From Leptolyngbya sp. PCC 6406 (GTDB taxonomy: Bacteria > Cyanobacteriota > Cyanobacteriia > Phormidesmidales > Phormidesmidaceae): 64,000 nucleotides of DNA. Of the stretch, positions 44,889 to 52,453 are shown piece after piece; positions within the stretch are counted from its first letter, which is position 1, and each line of letters opens with the position of its first letter. Below the pieces are notes generated by a model that saw only the letters and a program-made list of their open reading frames with translations, made no database searches and had not been told where the DNA came from. A program made the position numbers and the translations under genes. The DNA is taken from assembly GCF_000332095.2 (NCBI RefSeq), contig NZ_KI913949.1, forward strand, positions 2,045,726-2,109,725. Reading direction: 5' to 3'.

Positions 44889-45374
44889 CTATTCTTCGCC
44901 TGCCATCTGTAATATTTGCTGATAAAAATTAGGACTAATCCATGTCCCCTGATTGATTAAGTTATCCAGCAAGGGAGTGATCTTGCTCACGATTCCCTCT
45001 TCCTTGGCAAGCAATAAAATCCCTATGGTGCCGATGGTGGGTAATGCTAGCATTTGGGCTAGTTTGCGTCCTGCTCGTTCGTCCATTAGCAATCGATTTG
45101 CTTTCAATTCTTCAGCTAATGCGATCGCGGCACATTCGCCCCGGTCAAGTCCTGGGGTCTGTAGCAGTTGTTCAATTCTTCCTACCTGTTGAACAGTCCG
45201 TGTTTCAATCCATGTGGTAGCAGGGACTGCAATTGTAGCAGGATGACTGCCTGTGGTGAGTTCTGCATAAACAGTTGGAGGAATTAGGATCTTTGTGAAT
45301 AGAGAATGGAGCAAATCAAGACGGTCAATTTTGGCTAGTTCACTTAGGGGCGTCGTATTGGAGACAATTATCAC
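44889..45374 (-). CDS. DUF3368 PIN-like toxin, copy 1
   Basis: 161 residues. DUF3368/PIN-fold protein, probably a nuclease toxin of a type II toxin-antitoxin pair. Acidic residues typical of the family are in VSNTTPLSELAKI, LDRGECAAIALAEEL and LLMDERAGRKLA. GTG start, sharing GTGA with the stop of the upstream UPF0175 gene, so the pair is translationally coupled. Confidence 0.85.
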   Translation of the reverse strand: MIIVSNTTPLSELAKIDRLDLLHSLFTKILIPPTVYAELTTGSHPATIAVPATTWIETRTVQQVGRIEQLLQTPGLDRGECAAIALAEELKANRLLMDERAGRKLAQMLALPTIGTIGILLLAKEEGIVSKITPLLDNLINQGTWISPNFYQQILQMAGEE

Positions 45375-45637
45375 GGTTGAATCAGGCTCCGGGTTTCAGC
45401 CACCTCTTGGGTGATCTCTTCAGGAGTTTGCTCTGGGAAAACCGAGATTTTGTACTGTCCCATCAGTTCTATAACTTCTAAGCGACTGAGGTTAAGACTC
45501 TGAGCTGCGTAGCCTGTACTGATACTGCCGTAGCGCAGAAGTTCCATGATGTAAGTCTGACGGGCTTTCGCTTCAGCTTGCTGGCGAACGGTATTGTCCA
45601 ATTCAATACCTTCGGGCAGGTCGATAGTAATTTGCAT
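45371..45637 (-). CDS. UPF0175 family antitoxin, copy 1
   Basis: 88 residues with the UPF0175 pattern: MQITIDLPEGIE strand at the start, then helices YIMELLRYGSISTGYAAQSLNLSRLEVIELM (HTH-like). Expected to bind DNA and neutralise the adjacent DUF3368 protein. It precedes and overlaps its toxin gene. Confidence 0.85.
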   Translation of the reverse strand: MQITIDLPEGIELDNTVRQQAEAKARQTYIMELLRYGSISTGYAAQSLNLSRLEVIELMGQYKISVFPEQTPEEITQEVAETRSLIQP

Positions 45638-45758
45638 GGTTCAATCTCCTAAGTCAGGGGTTTCGGTGGATTTATTGAAGTGATCAATAATTTCGCGAAT
45701 TTCACTTACTGGAGTTTCAATTGCTTCATTGTTCAGATTCCGTTGATTCAGTTTGTGA

Positions 45759-46178
45759 TTATTTCAAGAGTCGAGTGAAGCCTGCTTGTTCAAAGTGGTG
45801 GTCGGTAGTGAGAGCTTGTTGGATGTTGTGTTGTTGCATGATGACAAAGGAACTGCAATCAACGAGTGACCAGGGTTTATCGGGGCGGTTTTGGCAAAGT
45901 TCCCAGGCGGCTTGGTCGAGGGTGGGATCGATATGGAGATGGGTGATGTAGGGATTTTATCGGACGATATTGATGTGGTTGAAGATGCGATCGCGCGGTA
46001 GGCGATGGGGGCTATTGAGAAGCGCGACAAGTTCGGCAATGACATAGTTTGTGGTGATGATAGAGATCCGATTGGCGATCGCTTGACGAAACTGCTGGGC
46101 AGCGATCAGGTGATGGTTTTCGGTGGGGATGAAGAGACTAGCCCAGCCAGAGGTATCGATGAAGAGATTATTCGGCAT
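45759..46178 (-). pseudogene. VapC-type PIN toxin interrupted by an in-frame stop
   Basis: Reads MPNNLFIDTSGWASLFIP...NYVIAELVALLNS...RIFNHINIVR, then TAA at 45957-45959, then continues in the same frame NPYITHLHIDPTLDQAAWELC...WSLVDCSSFVIM...ALTTDHHFEQAGF to a stop at 45759. The first acidic residue (LFIDTSGW) and the last ones (LVDCSSF, TTDHHF) are on opposite sides of the stop, so the truncated product would lack half of the PIN active site. It overlaps its antitoxin gene by 11 bp. Confidence 0.8.
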
Positions 46179-46422
46179 TGTGAAGTTCTTGGTAGAGGGC
46201 TTCGCCAATGTATTCGTCGTGGTTTTCAGCGAGGTCAGTGGTGCCGAGGTCTAGGGTGCCGATGAGGGAGAGGAGTTGATCGGTGTCGGCGGTTGCGATC
46301 GCGGGTTGGAGGTATTGGTTGAGGACTTGTATGATCAGGTTTTCAGGGGTGGTTTGGTTTTGGGTGGCTTGATGGATTAGGGTTTGCTGAAGGGCTTCAG
46401 GCAGGTCGATGGTAATTTGCAT
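46168..46422 (-). CDS. VapB-like antitoxin of the broken VapC
   Basis: 84 residues. N-terminal MQITIDLPEALQQTLIHQATQNQTTPENLIIQVLNQYL resembles a ribbon-helix-helix; the C-terminal tail (ENHDEYIGEALYQELHN) is acidic as in antitoxins. It starts 2 bp after the preceding gene and overlaps the start of the VapC gene. Confidence 0.8.
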   Translation of the reverse strand: MQITIDLPEALQQTLIHQATQNQTTPENLIIQVLNQYLQPAIATADTDQLLSLIGTLDLGTTDLAENHDEYIGEALYQELHNAE

Positions 46423-46424
46423 GG

Positions 46425-46844
46425 TCAGGCTCCTTGGTCAGGGGTTTCGCTCAGTTTGTCGAGATAGGTTAGGGTGGCTTTTGCCCATACGCTGTCTTCC
46501 AGGTAGTGCTTGACAACTTCGCCCAGGGTGGCTTTGAGGGCTTGGGCGTGACGCTCCGGGTTGAGGAGTTGTTGGCTGAGGATGGTGAGTTTACTCGTTG
46601 GAGATTGCTGAATCTCGATGAATTCTGAGTCAATGATCGCTAGGGCTTCGACTTCGGTAGTGACTTGGGGATGTTGAGTCTGAAGTTGGGGTAGGAGGGT
46701 TTGCAGCTCGGCAATGGCTGCTTGTACTTCGGGGTCAGTGACAGCAGAATTATGCGTCCCAATCTGATCGCCCTCGATCGTGCCGCCCAGGTTGACGGCA
46801 GCATTGTTTGCGTTGAAGTTTTGGATGTTGAACGTGTTATTCAT
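46425..46844 (-). CDS. Small bait-motif protein 2 (possible STAND accessory)
   Basis: 139 residues. A short N-terminal Asn/Gly-rich motif (NANNAAVNLGGTIEGDQIG) is comparable to the DLRGA...GDQI motif of the neighbouring small protein and the NACHT protein. A helical domain follows (AAIAELQTLLPQLQTQHPQV) with C-terminal VVKHYLEDSVWAKATLTYLDKLSE, matching VGEHFAENNVWAKGAIAFLEGVSE of the 47614-48003 protein. No enzyme motif. It sits with 2-3 bp gaps between toxin-antitoxin genes, so it is co-transcribed. Confidence 0.7.
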   Translation of the reverse strand: MNNTFNIQNFNANNAAVNLGGTIEGDQIGTHNSAVTDPEVQAAIAELQTLLPQLQTQHPQVTTEVEALAIIDSEFIEIQQSPTSKLTILSQQLLNPERHAQALKATLGEVVKHYLEDSVWAKATLTYLDKLSETPDQGA

Positions 46845-46847
46845 CTT

Positions 46848-47336
46848 TTAGGATTCTTGAGACAGCATCAGGATATAGTGATAGAGCTGAGAACTAACGC
46901 GAAAGCCAGCTTGGTTGCTTAAAGCATCCATAACGGGTTGAACTTTGGGGATGAGGTTTCTTTGTTTAGCGATGACCAAAATACCCAATAGTCCAATTAC
47001 AGAAAGACCATAGCGCTGTGCTTCTCTGCGACCTAGCCGCTCGTCAATCAGGAGTTCATCAGCTTTAAGCTGAATGGCCAAAGCAATGGCGTGAGCTTCT
47101 CCAGGGTCTAAATTTCTGTTTTGCTGCAAGGTTTCAGCTATAGTAGTGCTGCTTAGGGGTTGAACTTGAATCCAATCAAGGGTGAGGATATTTTGAATCC
47201 GAGTATCCGGAGCCGCAGTCAGTTCATTCGCGACAAGATTAGGGATGACGACGGTGCCATAAATATTGGGTAGCAGCCAAAGGTAATCAATTAGCGCTAG
47301 GCTTCCTAGGGGTGAGGTGTCGCTGACGACAATCAT
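46848..47336 (-). CDS. DUF3368 PIN-like toxin, copy 2
   Basis: 162 residues from ATG 47336, which overlaps the upstream antitoxin stop as ATGA; the TTG at 47342 is rejected. VVSDTSPLGSLALIDYL, LDPGEAHAIALAIQL and LLIDERLGRREAQ are the family acidic motifs. Paralogue of the 44889-45374 protein but clearly diverged. Confidence 0.85.
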   Translation of the reverse strand: MIVVSDTSPLGSLALIDYLWLLPNIYGTVVIPNLVANELTAAPDTRIQNILTLDWIQVQPLSSTTIAETLQQNRNLDPGEAHAIALAIQLKADELLIDERLGRREAQRYGLSVIGLLGILVIAKQRNLIPKVQPVMDALSNQAGFRVSSQLYHYILMLSQES

Positions 47337-47584
47337 AGCCAACCCCGATTACGGAGGTTTTGGAGGTCTTCTTCAAAATCCTCAATGTCGTAATGAATGC
47401 AGATATCACGACTACCAATTAGTTGCTGAAATTCCATTTGGTGCATCCCGGCGATTTGGCTGGCGGTACCTAGGGTGACCAGTTCTTGCTGAAAAAGAGC
47501 AATGGCAATTTCCCGCAACCAGTCCTTTTGGTTTAGAGTTGCGGTTGAATCTAGGTTTTCAGGCAAGTTCAGGGTAATTTGCAT
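47333..47584 (-). CDS. UPF0175 family antitoxin, copy 2
   Basis: 83 residues from ATG 47584 (the frame is open to 47728, but the upstream residues overlap the preceding gene and look non-coding). MQITLNLPENLDS start, helices LREIAIALFQQELVTLGTASQIAGMHQMEFQQLI. Cognate antitoxin of the DUF3368 protein, with a 4-bp ATGA overlap. Confidence 0.85.
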   Translation of the reverse strand: MQITLNLPENLDSTATLNQKDWLREIAIALFQQELVTLGTASQIAGMHQMEFQQLIGSRDICIHYDIEDFEEDLQNLRNRGWL

Positions 47585-47613: not shown

Positions 47614-48003
47614 TTATTGCCCATCTTCGCTCACGCCTTCGAGAAAGGCGATCGCGCCTTTTGCCCAGACATTGTTTTCGGCAAAGTGTTCGCCAACTTT
47701 GATACTTGCTTTCTTGCCACCATTCCAAAGTCGTTTGAGGTTAAGGAAGTTTTGCCACCGCTGCTGATCTTGGGCTTTGATGAGTTTTGCCTCGACTTCA
47801 ATGATTTGTGGCACGGTGCTTGGGTCTGACAAGGTGGGGTATTTCTGCTGAAGTTGCTTAATAAATTGCTGGTAGTCTGTCAACAAAATTTCAATATTTT
47901 GCTCAGACGCAGTTTGAATATGAGCAATCTGGTCGCCTTGAACGGTTTCGGCAAGATTGCCAATGTTGGCACCACGAAGATCAAATTTAGGGGCGTTGGA
48001 CAT
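47614..48003 (-). CDS. Small bait-motif protein 1 (possible STAND accessory)
   Basis: 129 residues from ATG 48003. Residues 6-25, FDLRGANIGNLAETVQGDQI, are nearly the same as the C-terminal motif of the NACHT protein. A helical middle (ILLTDYQQFIKQLQQKYPTL) and a tail VGEHFAENNVWAKGAIAFLEGVSE follow, related to bait-motif protein 2. Similar small proteins with a DLRG..I.N.A..V.G.Q leader occur next to STAND NTPases in cyanobacteria (from memory). It may be the partner recruited through like-with-like motif assembly. Confidence 0.72.
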   Translation of the reverse strand: MSNAPKFDLRGANIGNLAETVQGDQIAHIQTASEQNIEILLTDYQQFIKQLQQKYPTLSDPSTVPQIIEVEAKLIKAQDQQRWQNFLNLKRLWNGGKKASIKVGEHFAENNVWAKGAIAFLEGVSEDGQ

Positions 48004-48038: not shown

Positions 48039-48329
48039 CTAAGAATGATCATGGAGAACGAGATCGAGGGTTTGGATGTCTTGCTGAATGTCTTCTAGGG
48101 TAAGGGAGCGAATAGCACCGTGCTGTTTGAGAAAGGCATCGGTGGCGAGATGGGAGGGAAGGTTCAGCAGAGTTTGGACTTCGGCAGCACTCATGAGGTG
48201 ACTTGTGTAGGCTTCGATCGCGATTGTCTCCAAGACAGGCTGCGCCAACGCTTCGAGGGCACGTTGGCAGAGTTGGGGGAGATGGGACTGAAGGCGGCGT
48301 TCTAGGTCTTCAGGAATGGGGATCTTCAT
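48039..48329 (-). CDS. UPF0175-like small helical protein coupled to the NACHT gene
   Basis: 96 residues. N-terminal MKIPIPEDLERRLQSHLP, then IAIEAYTSHLMSAAEVQTLLNLPSHLATDAFLKQHGA, an HTH-like segment similar to UPF0175 antitoxins. Its ATG overlaps the TGA of the trypsin-NACHT-HEAT gene by 4 bp, so it is translated with it; GAGGAACTCCC upstream supports the start. No toxin follows directly; it may regulate the operon or modulate the NACHT protein. A relic copy is at 44600-44775. Confidence 0.7.
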   Translation of the reverse strand: MKIPIPEDLERRLQSHLPQLCQRALEALAQPVLETIAIEAYTSHLMSAAEVQTLLNLPSHLATDAFLKQHGAIRSLTLEDIQQDIQTLDLVLHDHS

Positions 48330-51300
48330 GGGAGTTCCTCCGTTTGTGTGATTTGGTTGCCGTGGACTTCATGGGCAAGATTGGCAATCGTGGCTCCTCT
48401 TAGATCATAGGTAACTGGGTTTGTTGCGGGGGTAAGATCGGTGTTCTGGCTGTTTTGCCGATCGCCCTCCTGCGCGGCTAAACAGGCTTGCCAAATCTCG
48501 TAGTTGTAGAATTGGCAGCGGTCTTGGATCGCGGCAATCGCATTCTCTAGGTAGTTCTCAGGTTGTCGCAAATGTAACTGCCACAAATCGGTTATGGTGG
48601 CAGCACTCCCCACCTTCCCTAAAGCGACAGCCGCGTCCCTACGGACATCCGAGTTCTGGTGTTGGAGATCCTGGAGTAAGCCCGGAATCGCCGCCTCACT
48701 CCCCACCTTCTCTAAAGCCGCCGCCGCGCTCCTACGGACATCCGAGTCCTGGTGTTGGATCGCCTGGAGTAAGGCCGGAATCGCCGCCTCACTCCCCAAA
48801 TTCCCTAAACCCTCAGCCGCGATCCAACGGACATGCCGGTCCTGGTGTTGGAGGGCCTGGAGTAAGGCCGGAATCGCCGCCTCACTCCCCAAATTCCCTA
48901 AAGCTTCAGCCGCGCTACTACGGACATTCCGGTCCTGGTCTTGGAGCGCCTGGAGTAAGGCCGGAATCGCCGCCTCACTCCCCAAATTCCCTAAAGCGTC
49001 AGCCGCGCTACTACAGACATACGAGTCCTGGTCTTGGAGGGCCTGGAGTAAACTCGGAATCGCCGCCTCACTCCCCAAATTCCCTAAAGCTTCAGCCGCG
49101 CTACTACGGACATTCCGGTCCTGGTCTTGGAGCGCCTGGAGTAAGGCCGGAATCGCCGCCTCACTCCCCAAATTCCCTAAAGCTTCAGCCGCGCTACTAC
49201 GGACATTCCGGTCCTGGTCTTGGAGCGCCTGGAGTAAGGCCGGAATCGCCGCCTCACTCCCCACCTTCCCTAAACCCTCAGCCGCTCTCCAACGGACACG
49301 CCAGTCCTGGTCTTGGATCGCCTGGAGTAAGTCCGGAATCGCCGCCTCACTCCCCAAATTCCCTAAAGCTTCAGCCGCGCTACTACGGACATGCGAGTCC
49401 TGGTGTTGGAGGGCCTGGAGTAAGGCCGGAATCGCCGCCTCACTCCCCACGTTCCCTAAACCCTCAGCCGCGCTCCTACGGACATGCGAGTCCTGGTGTT
49501 GGAGGGCCTGGCGTAAGGCCGGAATCGCCGCCTCACTCCTCACCTCCCCTAAACCCTCAGCCGCGCTCCTACGGACATGCGAGTCCTGGTGTTGGAGGGC
49601 CTGGCGTAAGGCCGGAATCGCCGCCTCACTCCTCACCTCCCCTAAAGCGTTAGCCGCGCTCCTACGGACATCCGAGTCCTGGTGTTGGAGGGCCTGGAGT
49701 AAGCCCAGAATCGCCGCCTCACTCCCCAAATTCCCTAAACCCTCAGCCGCGCTCCAACGGACATCCGAGTCCTGGTGCTGGAGCGCCTGGAGTAAGGCCG
49801 GAATCGCCGCCTCACTCCCCAAATTCCCTAAAGCTTCAGCCGCGCTACTACAGACATACGAGTCCTGGTGCTGGAGCGCCTGGAGTAAGCCCGGAATCGC
49901 CGCCTCACTCCCCAAATTCCCTAAAGCTTCAGCCGCGCTCCTACAGACACGCCAGTCCTGGTGCTGGAGCGCCTGGAGTAAGGCCGGAATCGCCGCCTCA
50001 CTCCCCAAATTCCCTAAAGCTTCAGCCGCGCTACTACAGACATACGAGTCCTGGTGTTGGAGGGCCTGGAGTAAGCCCGGAATCGCCGCCTCACTCCCCA
50101 AATTTCCTAAAGCTTCAGCCGCGCTACTACGGACAGACCAGTTCTGGTGTTGGAGAGCCTGGAGTAAGCCCGGAATCGCCGCCTCGCTGTGGCTGGTGGC
50201 CCAACAGTTCACTTTCAACCTTTTGGGGATGGCTCGGGCATCAATCCAGCCAACGGTTTTAGGTTGGAAAGATGCCTTGACCTCCCCTGCCAGTCTGGCC
50301 CCTAGCATCAAGTCCACGTCGTCCATCGCCAGCTTCACCACTCGCAAAGCCTGGGCTGATTCATTGACCAGGGCCAGCAATAGGGCAATAGGCTCTGTCC
50401 ACTTCAGCAGGTTGAGGTAGTCGCGCCTGAGTTGCTCATCGCTTAGCTCGGGAAGGCGTTGCAGCAACTGTTCGGCGGCGTAGTATTCCTGAATCAGTTG
50501 GTGGCGAAACTCGATTTGGTCGGTGGTGCGGTTTTGCAGTAGGTGGTATTTGAGCAGATCGTCTAAGATGTCGCGGACGGGGAATTTCTCCTGAGCAAAG
50601 AGTTGGCTGAGTTCCCGTTCGGCTTCGGTGCGGTGAATCGCCACGCGAAAATCCACCGGGGTTTCGCCCTGCATCATCCGGGCTGCTAGAGCCATCAACG
50701 CTTTTTTCCACAGACGGCGATCGCTCAGCGCCCGCACATCCCCCTTCAACAGCGCCACCTCATGCTTGCGCACACTGCTGTCCTCATACATCGTCGTAAA
50801 CGCCCGAAACACCTCAGCCAGGTTGGTGGGTATTTGCCGATTGGGCAACTGCTGAAACACCTCACACAGCATCCACAACAGCAGCGGCGTTTGACCAAAC
50901 TCCCGCAGACGGTCATTCAACTGCCGCAACATCGCCTCCCCCTGGTCGGGCACATAGGCGCGAATGAACGCCTGCATCTGCGGCTCGGTCAGGGGCTGCA
51001 TTTCCAGCTTTTTCTCAATTCCCAGGTCGCCCCCCAGCCCCAGATCCCGCGTGGTGAAGATCATCGGTACTTGGGGGTGATTGCGCCGAAAGGCTGTCAG
51101 TTGGGTTCTGGCCTCCTCCGAAGGCAACTCATTCAGCCCATCAATCAGCAGCAAAAAGCGGTTTTGGTCTAGCAACGTCGCCAGGGTAGCGTCATCCAGC
51201 CTCACCCCATGGCGCTTCAGAAACCCCCGCATCAGCCCCTCAAGGGAATCTTGCCAATAGCGCAACTCCACCAATACCGGTATCTTCTCTGGCCCCCCTC

Positions 51301-52453
51301 TCCCAGGTTTGGGAGAGGGGCTGGGGGTGAGGGCCTCCGGGGACTTGACTATAAACGAATTCGCCTCCTCCAACAGCAGACGAATCAACGCTGTAGATTT
51401 GCCCGATCCAGGCCGCCCCACCAGCAGCACATGGTCATCTGCATACTTGCGAATACCCTCTAGCACCGGCAACCGCTCAGTTTTCTCGCGCTTCTCCTGG
51501 GCGGGGTCTTTCTCCTCAGGGGTTTCTTTCTCAACGGTCTGCACCATCAGGCCAAAGTCAAAAATCGGCGGCGGCTCTGGTGCGGGTTGCTCTGGCGCAG
51601 GTTGCTCAACTTTGCCCGTGGCATCCGTCAGCGTGTAGTGCGTCCACCATTTCTCGTAAGTTGTGGTGAGGGTCTGCAAATAGGGCTCAAAGTCGATGTC
51701 AGCGAGACTGGAAGGCTGGTCGGCAGTTGAAGTTCCCGATTCATAGAAATTGATCTGCGTCCCAATCTTGTCTCTGCCAACCTTGTCGCCAGCGACCACA
51801 TCACCGTGGACTGTCTGACTCGCTTCAGCAGTTATCTCTGGCAAAAGTTGCGCCCAGCGTGAATCCTGCTGGTGAGCCTGCTGCTGAAGCTGCTGTAACT
51901 CAGGGAACTGCTCCAGAATCACGCGGGTGGGGATGGCACCACCACCGAGATCGGAAGCGCGATCGCGGGTAAAACTGACCAGGCCACAGACCCGGCCCGT
52001 CCTCAAATTCAGCAGTGGCGCACCACTCAACCCCGGACGCACCTGGGCCAGCTTAAACACCAGCAATTCCGAGCCATTCTCCGTCGCCGAGCCCTCACAG
52101 ACCCCCGTCACCGACGTTCCCTCAGGAAACCTATCGGGATAGCCATAGGTGTACAGGTCATCCTGGGGCTGAAACGCCTCCCCCAAATACCCACAGGGCA
52201 TCTCCCCATAGGGCAGTGGCGAGCATCGCAACAACGCCAAATCAACCTCAGGCCGCCGCTCCACCACCTCAGCTTCAGCCAAACGCCTCTGCTGCCCATC
52301 AATCTGAGCCCTAGCGTCACCCTGAAGCACCTGGACCACATGGTCACAGGTCAAAATCAATCCCGGCGCAACAAAGAACCCCGTCCCCCAGCCACCAGGA
52401 ACCGTAATCTTGACCGTACAATCTTGCAGCAGTTGATCAAGCCGCTGGGACAT
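48326..52453 (-). CDS. Trypsin-NACHT-HEAT STAND protein
   Basis: 1375 residues. (1) Trypsin-like serine protease, 1-~200: His38 (LTCDHVV), Asp71 (EVDLALLRC), Ser143 (PGLSGAPLLN), triad intact, no signal peptide. (2) Linker with a repeated GD-K motif at 216-230 (HGDVVAGDKVGRDKIG). (3) NACHT NTPase from ~325: Walker A GRPGSGKST at 346-354, Walker B FLLLIDGLNELPS, sensor MIFTTRDL, helical region to ~720. (4) Seventeen near-identical 31-residue HEAT-like repeats, 756-1282, plus a degenerate one. (5) C-terminal YDLRGATIANLAHEVHGNQI. Such proteins are thought to oligomerise on sensing a ligand through the repeats and then activate the protease; here this is inference. First gene of a tight minus-strand cluster. 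Confidence 0.9.
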   Translation of the reverse strand: MSQRLDQLLQDCTVKITVPGGWGTGFFVAPGLILTCDHVVQVLQGDARAQIDGQQRRLAEAEVVERRPEVDLALLRCSPLPYGEMPCGYLGEAFQPQDDLYTYGYPDRFPEGTSVTGVCEGSATENGSELLVFKLAQVRPGLSGAPLLNLRTGRVCGLVSFTRDRASDLGGGAIPTRVILEQFPELQQLQQQAHQQDSRWAQLLPEITAEASQTVHGDVVAGDKVGRDKIGTQINFYESGTSTADQPSSLADIDFEPYLQTLTTTYEKWWTHYTLTDATGKVEQPAPEQPAPEPPPIFDFGLMVQTVEKETPEEKDPAQEKREKTERLPVLEGIRKYADDHVLLVGRPGSGKSTALIRLLLEEANSFIVKSPEALTPSPSPKPGRGGPEKIPVLVELRYWQDSLEGLMRGFLKRHGVRLDDATLATLLDQNRFLLLIDGLNELPSEEARTQLTAFRRNHPQVPMIFTTRDLGLGGDLGIEKKLEMQPLTEPQMQAFIRAYVPDQGEAMLRQLNDRLREFGQTPLLLWMLCEVFQQLPNRQIPTNLAEVFRAFTTMYEDSSVRKHEVALLKGDVRALSDRRLWKKALMALAARMMQGETPVDFRVAIHRTEAERELSQLFAQEKFPVRDILDDLLKYHLLQNRTTDQIEFRHQLIQEYYAAEQLLQRLPELSDEQLRRDYLNLLKWTEPIALLLALVNESAQALRVVKLAMDDVDLMLGARLAGEVKASFQPKTVGWIDARAIPKRLKVNCWATSHSEAAIPGLLQALQHQNWSVRSSAAEALGNLGSEAAIPGLLQALQHQDSYVCSSAAEALGNLGSEAAIPALLQALQHQDWRVCRSAAEALGNLGSEAAIPGLLQALQHQDSYVCSSAAEALGNLGSEAAIPALLQALQHQDSDVRWSAAEGLGNLGSEAAILGLLQALQHQDSDVRRSAANALGEVRSEAAIPALRQALQHQDSHVRRSAAEGLGEVRSEAAIPALRQALQHQDSHVRRSAAEGLGNVGSEAAIPALLQALQHQDSHVRSSAAEALGNLGSEAAIPDLLQAIQDQDWRVRWRAAEGLGKVGSEAAIPALLQALQDQDRNVRSSAAEALGNLGSEAAIPALLQALQDQDRNVRSSAAEALGNLGSEAAIPSLLQALQDQDSYVCSSAADALGNLGSEAAIPALLQALQDQDRNVRSSAAEALGNLGSEAAIPALLQALQHQDRHVRWIAAEGLGNLGSEAAIPALLQAIQHQDSDVRRSAAAALEKVGSEAAIPGLLQDLQHQNSDVRRDAAVALGKVGSAATITDLWQLHLRQPENYLENAIAAIQDRCQFYNYEIWQACLAAQEGDRQNSQNTDLTPATNPVTYDLRGATIANLAHEVHGNQITQTEELP
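48607..50187 (-). repeat. 17 tandem 93-bp units encoding HEAT-like repeats
   Basis: Each unit encodes SEAAIP.LLQALQHQD followed by a variable stretch and then SAAEALGNLG. Units are almost identical at DNA level, including synonymous positions, which implies recent expansion or gene conversion. Differences gather at repeat positions 17-22 (for example SYVCS, WRVCR, SDVRW, SHVRR, RNVRS). Confidence 0.95.

Follow-up and report, generated by a model that had tools for sequence, protein, structure and literature searches.

Within the window, the whole 64,000-nucleotide stretch of Leptolyngbya sp. PCC 6406 DNA analyzed here, a large gene on the minus strand encodes 17 tandem HEAT units that are probably the ligand sensor of an immune-type receptor. 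Our reading, to which we assign a probability of roughly 0.7, is that the array acts as the sensing module of a bacterial NLR-like receptor and is diversified by recombination between repeats and by selection on a binding groove, with no diversity-generating retroelement (DGR) involved. Computational analysis of the gene and its relatives revealed a common architecture, homogenized repeats, position-specific diversification, gene-to-gene turnover of the sensor, swapping of effectors, and pairing of short motifs with neighboring genes. The receptor gene and its parts are as follows.

48326..52453, minus strand: Trypsin_2-NACHT-HEAT protein of 1375 aa, putative NLR-like receptor (ORF, Pfam, relatives)
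51980..52387, minus strand: Trypsin_2 protease domain, aa 23–158 (Pfam, E = 4.3e-18)
51743..51808, minus strand: linker carrying a short GD-rich motif, HGDVVAGDKVGRDKIGTQINFY, aa 216–237 (sequence)
50774..51436, minus strand: NACHT NTPase, about aa 340–560, bounds approximate (Pfam NACHT, E = 5.1e-7)
48608..50188, minus strand: hypervariable-groove array of 17 HEAT units of 93 bp, aa 756–1282 (TRF, ORF frame, AlphaFold2 model)
48488..48607, minus strand: C-terminal array cap with the conserved sequence IQxRC(K/Q)FYNYEI (kept in relatives)
48350..48415, minus strand: C-terminal short motif VTYDLRGATIANLAHEVHGNQI, aa 1347–1368 (matches the N terminus of the 47614–48003 product; cognate pairing across loci)

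The order of the parts, an effector, an NTPase, and superstructure-forming repeats (Trypsin_2, NACHT, and HEAT, respectively), is that of NLR/STAND-NACHT proteins. The predicted triad positions of the protease are filled (H38, D71, and S143, assigned by motif). The NACHT domain scored 30.1 bits against PF05729 (Pfam cutoff, 26.7) and contains the Walker A and B motifs required for NLR/STAND-NACHT membership (GRPGSGKST at aa 346 and the Walker B-like FLLLIDGLNE at aa 433). The effector-switch-sensor plan of the receptor and its relatives, as judged from sequence, is the plan of NLRs. The linker motif HGDVVAGDKVGRDKIGTQINFY appears to be of the same kind as the C-terminal motif of the receptor. 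An identity as a phycobilin lyase was considered and rejected; models for CpcE, NblB, and similar proteins matched generic repeats only, with scores below the cutoff.

TRF detected one 93-bp array in the window (48604–50185; 17.0 copies; score, 2372; no indels). In the reading frame it resolves into 17 exact 31-residue units, nearly all beginning with SEAAIP, and the initial annotation, which had placed 17 such units at 48607–50187, was correct to one base. That annotation had described the units as almost identical, which holds moderately: pairwise identity averages 0.891 for the DNA (minimum, 0.828; maximum, 100%) and 0.776 for the protein (minimum, 0.613). Units 11, 12, and 14 have the same DNA sequence. 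The framework is conserved even at silent sites, as the annotation had noted: A3 and A4 are encoded by GCG, L8 and L27 by TTA, Q10 and Q15 by CAG, and V19 by GTC in 17/17 units. Variation is indeed concentrated in a few codons, and the most variable unit positions in the window are, in order, 18, 21, 7, 17, 25, and 29, followed by 22 and 20. At positions 17, 18, 20, and 21 only one codon is used per amino acid, so each codon change is a residue change; at position 18, six different NNT codons specify six residues. Four units (2, 3, 4, and 13) have Cys (TGT) in place of Arg20 (CGT), which is conserved in the others, and together they form a cysteine stripe.

Eleven other HEAT loci were sampled from the same genome as a control. 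Their mean unit DNA identity is 0.30–0.59, and the likeness of the array's units is therefore not due to chance. Mean unit identity is 0.30–0.41 in ten of these controls, nine HEAT proteins that lack a P-loop and one (L090) that has it. The eleventh, L122 (G000:C1:3241500-3246500), also contains a P-loop, and its repeats are partly homogenized (mean identity, 0.59; maximum, 0.86). Among the HEAT loci sampled, the homogenized arrays of the host genome are P-loop-linked ones only. Recent expansion or homogenization, the former already proposed in the annotation, is supported because the silent sites are near-identical and ordinary HEAT proteins encoded elsewhere in the genome are not homogenized. 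Identity between units is usually higher within a gene than between genes, though not in every array, and this comparison, together with the same-genome control, argues for concerted evolution of the units. Relative to the fungal criterion for high internal conservation (HIC), which asks for repeat identity exceeding about 85% across a minimum of 100 aa (PMC4986451), the array stands at 89% for DNA and 78% for protein, with 85% protein identity reached by subsets of units only.

In an AlphaFold2 model of aa 245–1375, pLDDT is about 90 over the array and all 17 units are predicted to form a helix A at positions ∼2–11 and a helix B at positions 17–30. The variable positions 17, 18, 21, 22, 25, and 29 are all in helix B, where they fall within a 140° arc (arithmetic from the sequence at 100° per residue) opposite the conserved positions 19, 20, 23, 26, 27, and 30. 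The best named PDB sequence matches of the array are chains of alphaRep, an artificial HEAT-like binder (best match overall, 5.8e-117; alphaRep-like chains from 3e-76). The best fold matches are also alphaReps, with TM scores of 0.88–0.90 (by target length), and include the EGFP complex 4xl5. AlphaRep fully randomizes its positions 18, 19, 22, 23, and 26 and varies position 30 (PMC3754942), which by alignment correspond to array positions 17, 18, 21, 22, and 25 and to position 29, respectively. AlphaRep binders contact their targets via the randomized positions on the concave face (PMC3754942). In the model, the variable positions of the array share one face of helix B and coincide with target-contacting positions of alphaRep, rather than falling in the buried core.

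Selection was assessed in 22 arrays, the window array and 21 others, each having six or more units and an internal identity of 70% or higher. Variability was ranked as an average over arrays with at least 75% identity, and the top five positions were 18, 21, 17, 22, and 25. This groove list was derived before the randomized positions of alphaRep were read; it was drawn partly from the same data, and its match to the outside alphaRep definition limits the circularity. The pN/pS ratio of the window array at these five positions is 3.64 by the NG86 method, a value that on its own represents a small sample with few synonymous changes at groove codons, and recombining repeats violate the tree assumptions behind such ratios. 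In neutral duplication-mutation simulations, where recombination enters only through the simulated duplications, the mean ratio was 0.82–0.88, and 0/150 runs reached 3.64 at each of four mutation loads. Among the 21 non-window arrays, groove pN exceeded array-wide pS in 19 (Wilcoxon p = 1.6e-4; median ratio, 1.89) and was below pS in the other two; the median ratio was 0.36 at core positions and 0.86 at the remaining positions. Greater variation at exposed than at buried positions is a feature of HEAT proteins in general. The NG86 ratios and the neutral simulations point to positive selection at groove codons. Selection for a changeable surface, as the initial annotation had suggested, is supported because the window ratio was never reached in neutral runs and because pN exceeded pS in 19/21 other arrays.

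The NACHT domain of the receptor has 54 relatives, all cyanobacterial and nearly all from filamentous genera, including Nodosilinea, Leptolyngbya, Phormidium, Nostoc, Brasilonema, Moorena, and Trichodesmium. In these proteins the array sits between NACHT and the C terminus while the effectors change. The N-terminal module is trypsin (L033) or another short domain, and the C-terminal module is TIR (L021), caspase (L065), PNPase (L063), metallophosphatase (L062), or a motif-bearing tail. Arrays of relatives end in the conserved cap IQxRCKFYNYEI, and in some relatives the array is diverged or was not recognized; copy counts range from none recognized to about 29, values that draft assemblies may miscount. 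In 15 gene pairs with NACHT domains 80%–91% identical, unit number differs in 15/15; 14 of these pairs have no five-residue groove signature in common, and the remaining pair has one. The same units in the same order, a finding that would speak against a changeable sensor, were therefore not seen. The NACHT domains of L048 and L066, for example, are 91% identical, yet their array units have 59% DNA identity and no groove signature in common, and the window array and L022 are 86% alike in framework with zero signatures in common. This turnover is between genes and species, with one genome per species. The sister genomes examined, wherever their ileS and trpD flanks could be located, lacked the receptor and its neighbors, and the locus therefore looks accessory in those genomes.

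On the output side, four features lie downstream of the receptor.

48039..48329, minus strand: UPF0175 gene, between the receptor and the small protein (Pfam, E = 6e-9)
47614..48003, minus strand: small protein with N-terminal motif KFDLRGANIGNLAETVQGDQI and a helical domain (sequence, relatives, structure model)
46848..47584, minus strand: pair of UPF0175 and DUF3368 (PIN-like) genes (Pfam)
46425..46844, minus strand: second small protein, with motif NLGGTIEGDQIG of another type (sequence, relatives)

The small protein encoded at 47614–48003 occurs fused to NACHT-HEAT proteins in L022, L028, and L033. Its predicted structure is a helical bundle, with the motif itself disordered, and a PDB search with this fold returned nothing better than E = 2.9. 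In six loci (the window, L025, L036, L043, L044, and L071), the receptor tail and the N terminus of the nearby small protein carry the same type of motif, and the cognate assignment of receptor and small-protein motifs ranks 1 of 720 permutations by score; the window and L044 have one type, so the types are not fully independent. The C-terminal motifs of receptors and the N-terminal motifs of their neighbors could represent a possible new amyloid-like or adaptor pairing. The NLGGTIEGDQIG motif type is also present at the C termini of L032 and L035.

Homologs of UPF0175, often accompanied by a DUF3368 PIN-like gene, adjoin 13/57 NACHT loci, mostly those of the closest relatives (among them the window, L022, L029, L032, L033, L035, L047, and L089). 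This toxin-antitoxin-like pair may belong to the receptor system or guard it. A further UPF0175/DUF3368 pair, a small ORF, and then a short PIN-like ORF lie at 44889–46422, between ileS and the receptor locus, and the region is predicted to be a dense toxin-antitoxin-like island. Small domains, either fused (C termini of L058, L060, L067, and L068) or separate (the L044 small protein), end in a hydrophobic helix such as VETVKILFAPAGIPIEAIRAW, as expected of a putative membrane-active, BELL-like effector.

The array could instead be an ordinary structural scaffold in which the groove varies by relaxed constraint on exposed residues and recombination homogenizes the rest. HEAT repeats generally keep their core and vary their surface, and the positions randomized in alphaRep were themselves chosen from the natural side-chain distribution (PMC3754942). 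Relaxed constraint, however, yields pN/pS up to about 1, compared with 3.6 in the window and a median of 1.9 in the other arrays; the remaining positions, many of which are exposed too, have a median of 0.86, and ordinary HEAT proteins of the host genome are not homogenized. We consider a scaffold improbable. Somewhat less improbable, and still unlikely, is that the same machine recognizes a self/non-self protein in allorecognition or kin discrimination within filaments or mats, like HET-D/HET-E, rather than a phage product. The closest evolutionary analog works in allorecognition (PMC1805685, PMC12222747), and nearly all members of the family come from filamentous cyanobacteria, which often form mats; against this, the bacterial NACHT proteins that have been characterized are antiphage proteins (PMC12169576), and this analysis gave no evidence for a host-encoded polymorphic partner. 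Because of those characterized proteins, antiphage action is by analogy the more likely role of the receptor, and allorecognition as in Podospora would fit its evolution equally well.

DGRs do act on NACHT-associated sensors of multicellular bacteria (PMC10907252), and the position 18 codons, all NNT, could be derived from an AAT template codon. A two-unit query, however, matched the array alone genome-wide, so there is no DGR template repeat in the genome; RVT_1 matches are >0.45 Mb away or on other contigs, and the variation extends across 17 units and includes sites that no adenine template simply explains. Variation written by a DGR is thus very improbable. We give equally little credence to an assembly artifact or a decayed pseudogene: repeats are prone to misassembly, and the array was judged from an assembly, which leaves its exact copy number provisional, but the ORF is open for 1375 codons with exact periodicity and units that differ among themselves, the contig is 5.47 Mb long, and like arrays occur in many independent genomes.

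For the preferred reading, a receptor whose groove is diversified by recombination and selection, we propose the following mechanism. The HEAT solenoid would offer a concave groove lined by unit positions 17, 18, 21, 22, 25, and 29. Recombination between repeats, through unequal crossing-over or gene conversion, would keep the framework alike, alter copy number, and shuffle units, and selection would favor residue differences at the groove, with the result that specificity would change far more quickly than the NACHT switch does. Binding of a variable protein ligand to the groove may release the NACHT module, which would then oligomerize in an NTP-driven manner and activate the fused trypsin-like protease. 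The C-terminal motif may recruit the cognate small motif protein encoded nearby, and an invader, whether phage or other non-self, would probably be answered with an abortive or cell-death-type response. A broader proposal, for which we judge the odds to be slightly short of even, is that the NACHT receptors of filamentous cyanobacteria constitute a natural, DGR-independent, alphaRep-like repertoire: recombination would supply combinations of groove residues, selection would retain the ones able to bind new proteins of phage or non-self origin, and effectors would be swappable and partners coded by motifs.

If our reading is true, the fungal NLR principle of homogenized repeats with a diversifying binding surface extends to bacteria with HEAT repeats. 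Specificity change in bacterial NLRs would also become directly testable because alphaRep has already shown how the array scaffold binds: one could read groove residues unit by unit, swap arrays, and use an isolated array to fish for ligands. Both have a 31-residue unit, and the five positions randomized in alphaRep are the variable ones of the array; alphaRep is an engineered library, whereas the array is natural and fused to a NACHT switch.

The literature search returned no report of selected, homogenized HEAT arrays in bacterial NACHT proteins, which is weak evidence, with most subscription papers outside the search; within the literature covered, the combination of a homogenized HEAT array and groove selection on a NACHT protein is apparently unreported in bacteria. 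Cyanobacteria are known to have WD40 proteins that are highly repetitive (PMC5587647). Like the receptor, bNACHT antiphage proteins have a central NACHT module and an N-terminal effector, but those characterized carry SNaCT or NCH1 C termini (PMC12169576) in place of a homogenized HEAT array. Avs1, a protease-STAND antiphage protein, similarly joins an N-terminal trypsin-like protease to a STAND NTPase; its profile was not matched along the whole receptor, for which PADLOC gave weak or partial matches only, with Avs1b over the protease alone (aa 5–106, E = 7e-4). DGR-diversified NACHT sensors also place a diversified sensor on a NACHT protein (PMC10907252), but those diversify a C-type lectin by error-prone reverse transcription. 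The receptor locus resembles BASS/BELL amyloid signalosomes in having a short motif common to an NLR and a neighboring small protein. BASS is at the NLR N terminus and BELL at the C terminus of the partner (PMC7889193), and the window has the reverse arrangement, with motifs at the NLR C terminus and the partner N terminus.

The closest parallel is with fungal NLRs, in which homogenized repeats under diversifying selection are established; some of the fungal cases of high internal conservation involve HEAT repeats (PMC4986451, PMC12222747). The HNWD/HET-E and HET-D proteins of Podospora anserina have near-identical repeats with concerted evolution, copy-number variation, and selection at a few surface residues; the positively selected sites are on the concave side in TPR and mostly so in ANK repeats (PMC1805685, PMC4986451, PMC12222747). 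The receptor and the HNWD-type proteins are alike in being NACHT-type NLRs with near-identical C-terminal repeats and few selected surface residues. The fungal proteins mostly carry WD40, TPR, or ANK repeats and HET or other effectors, with a known ligand (HET-C) and demonstrated within-species alleles, whereas the receptor is bacterial and combines 31-aa HEAT units with a trypsin effector.
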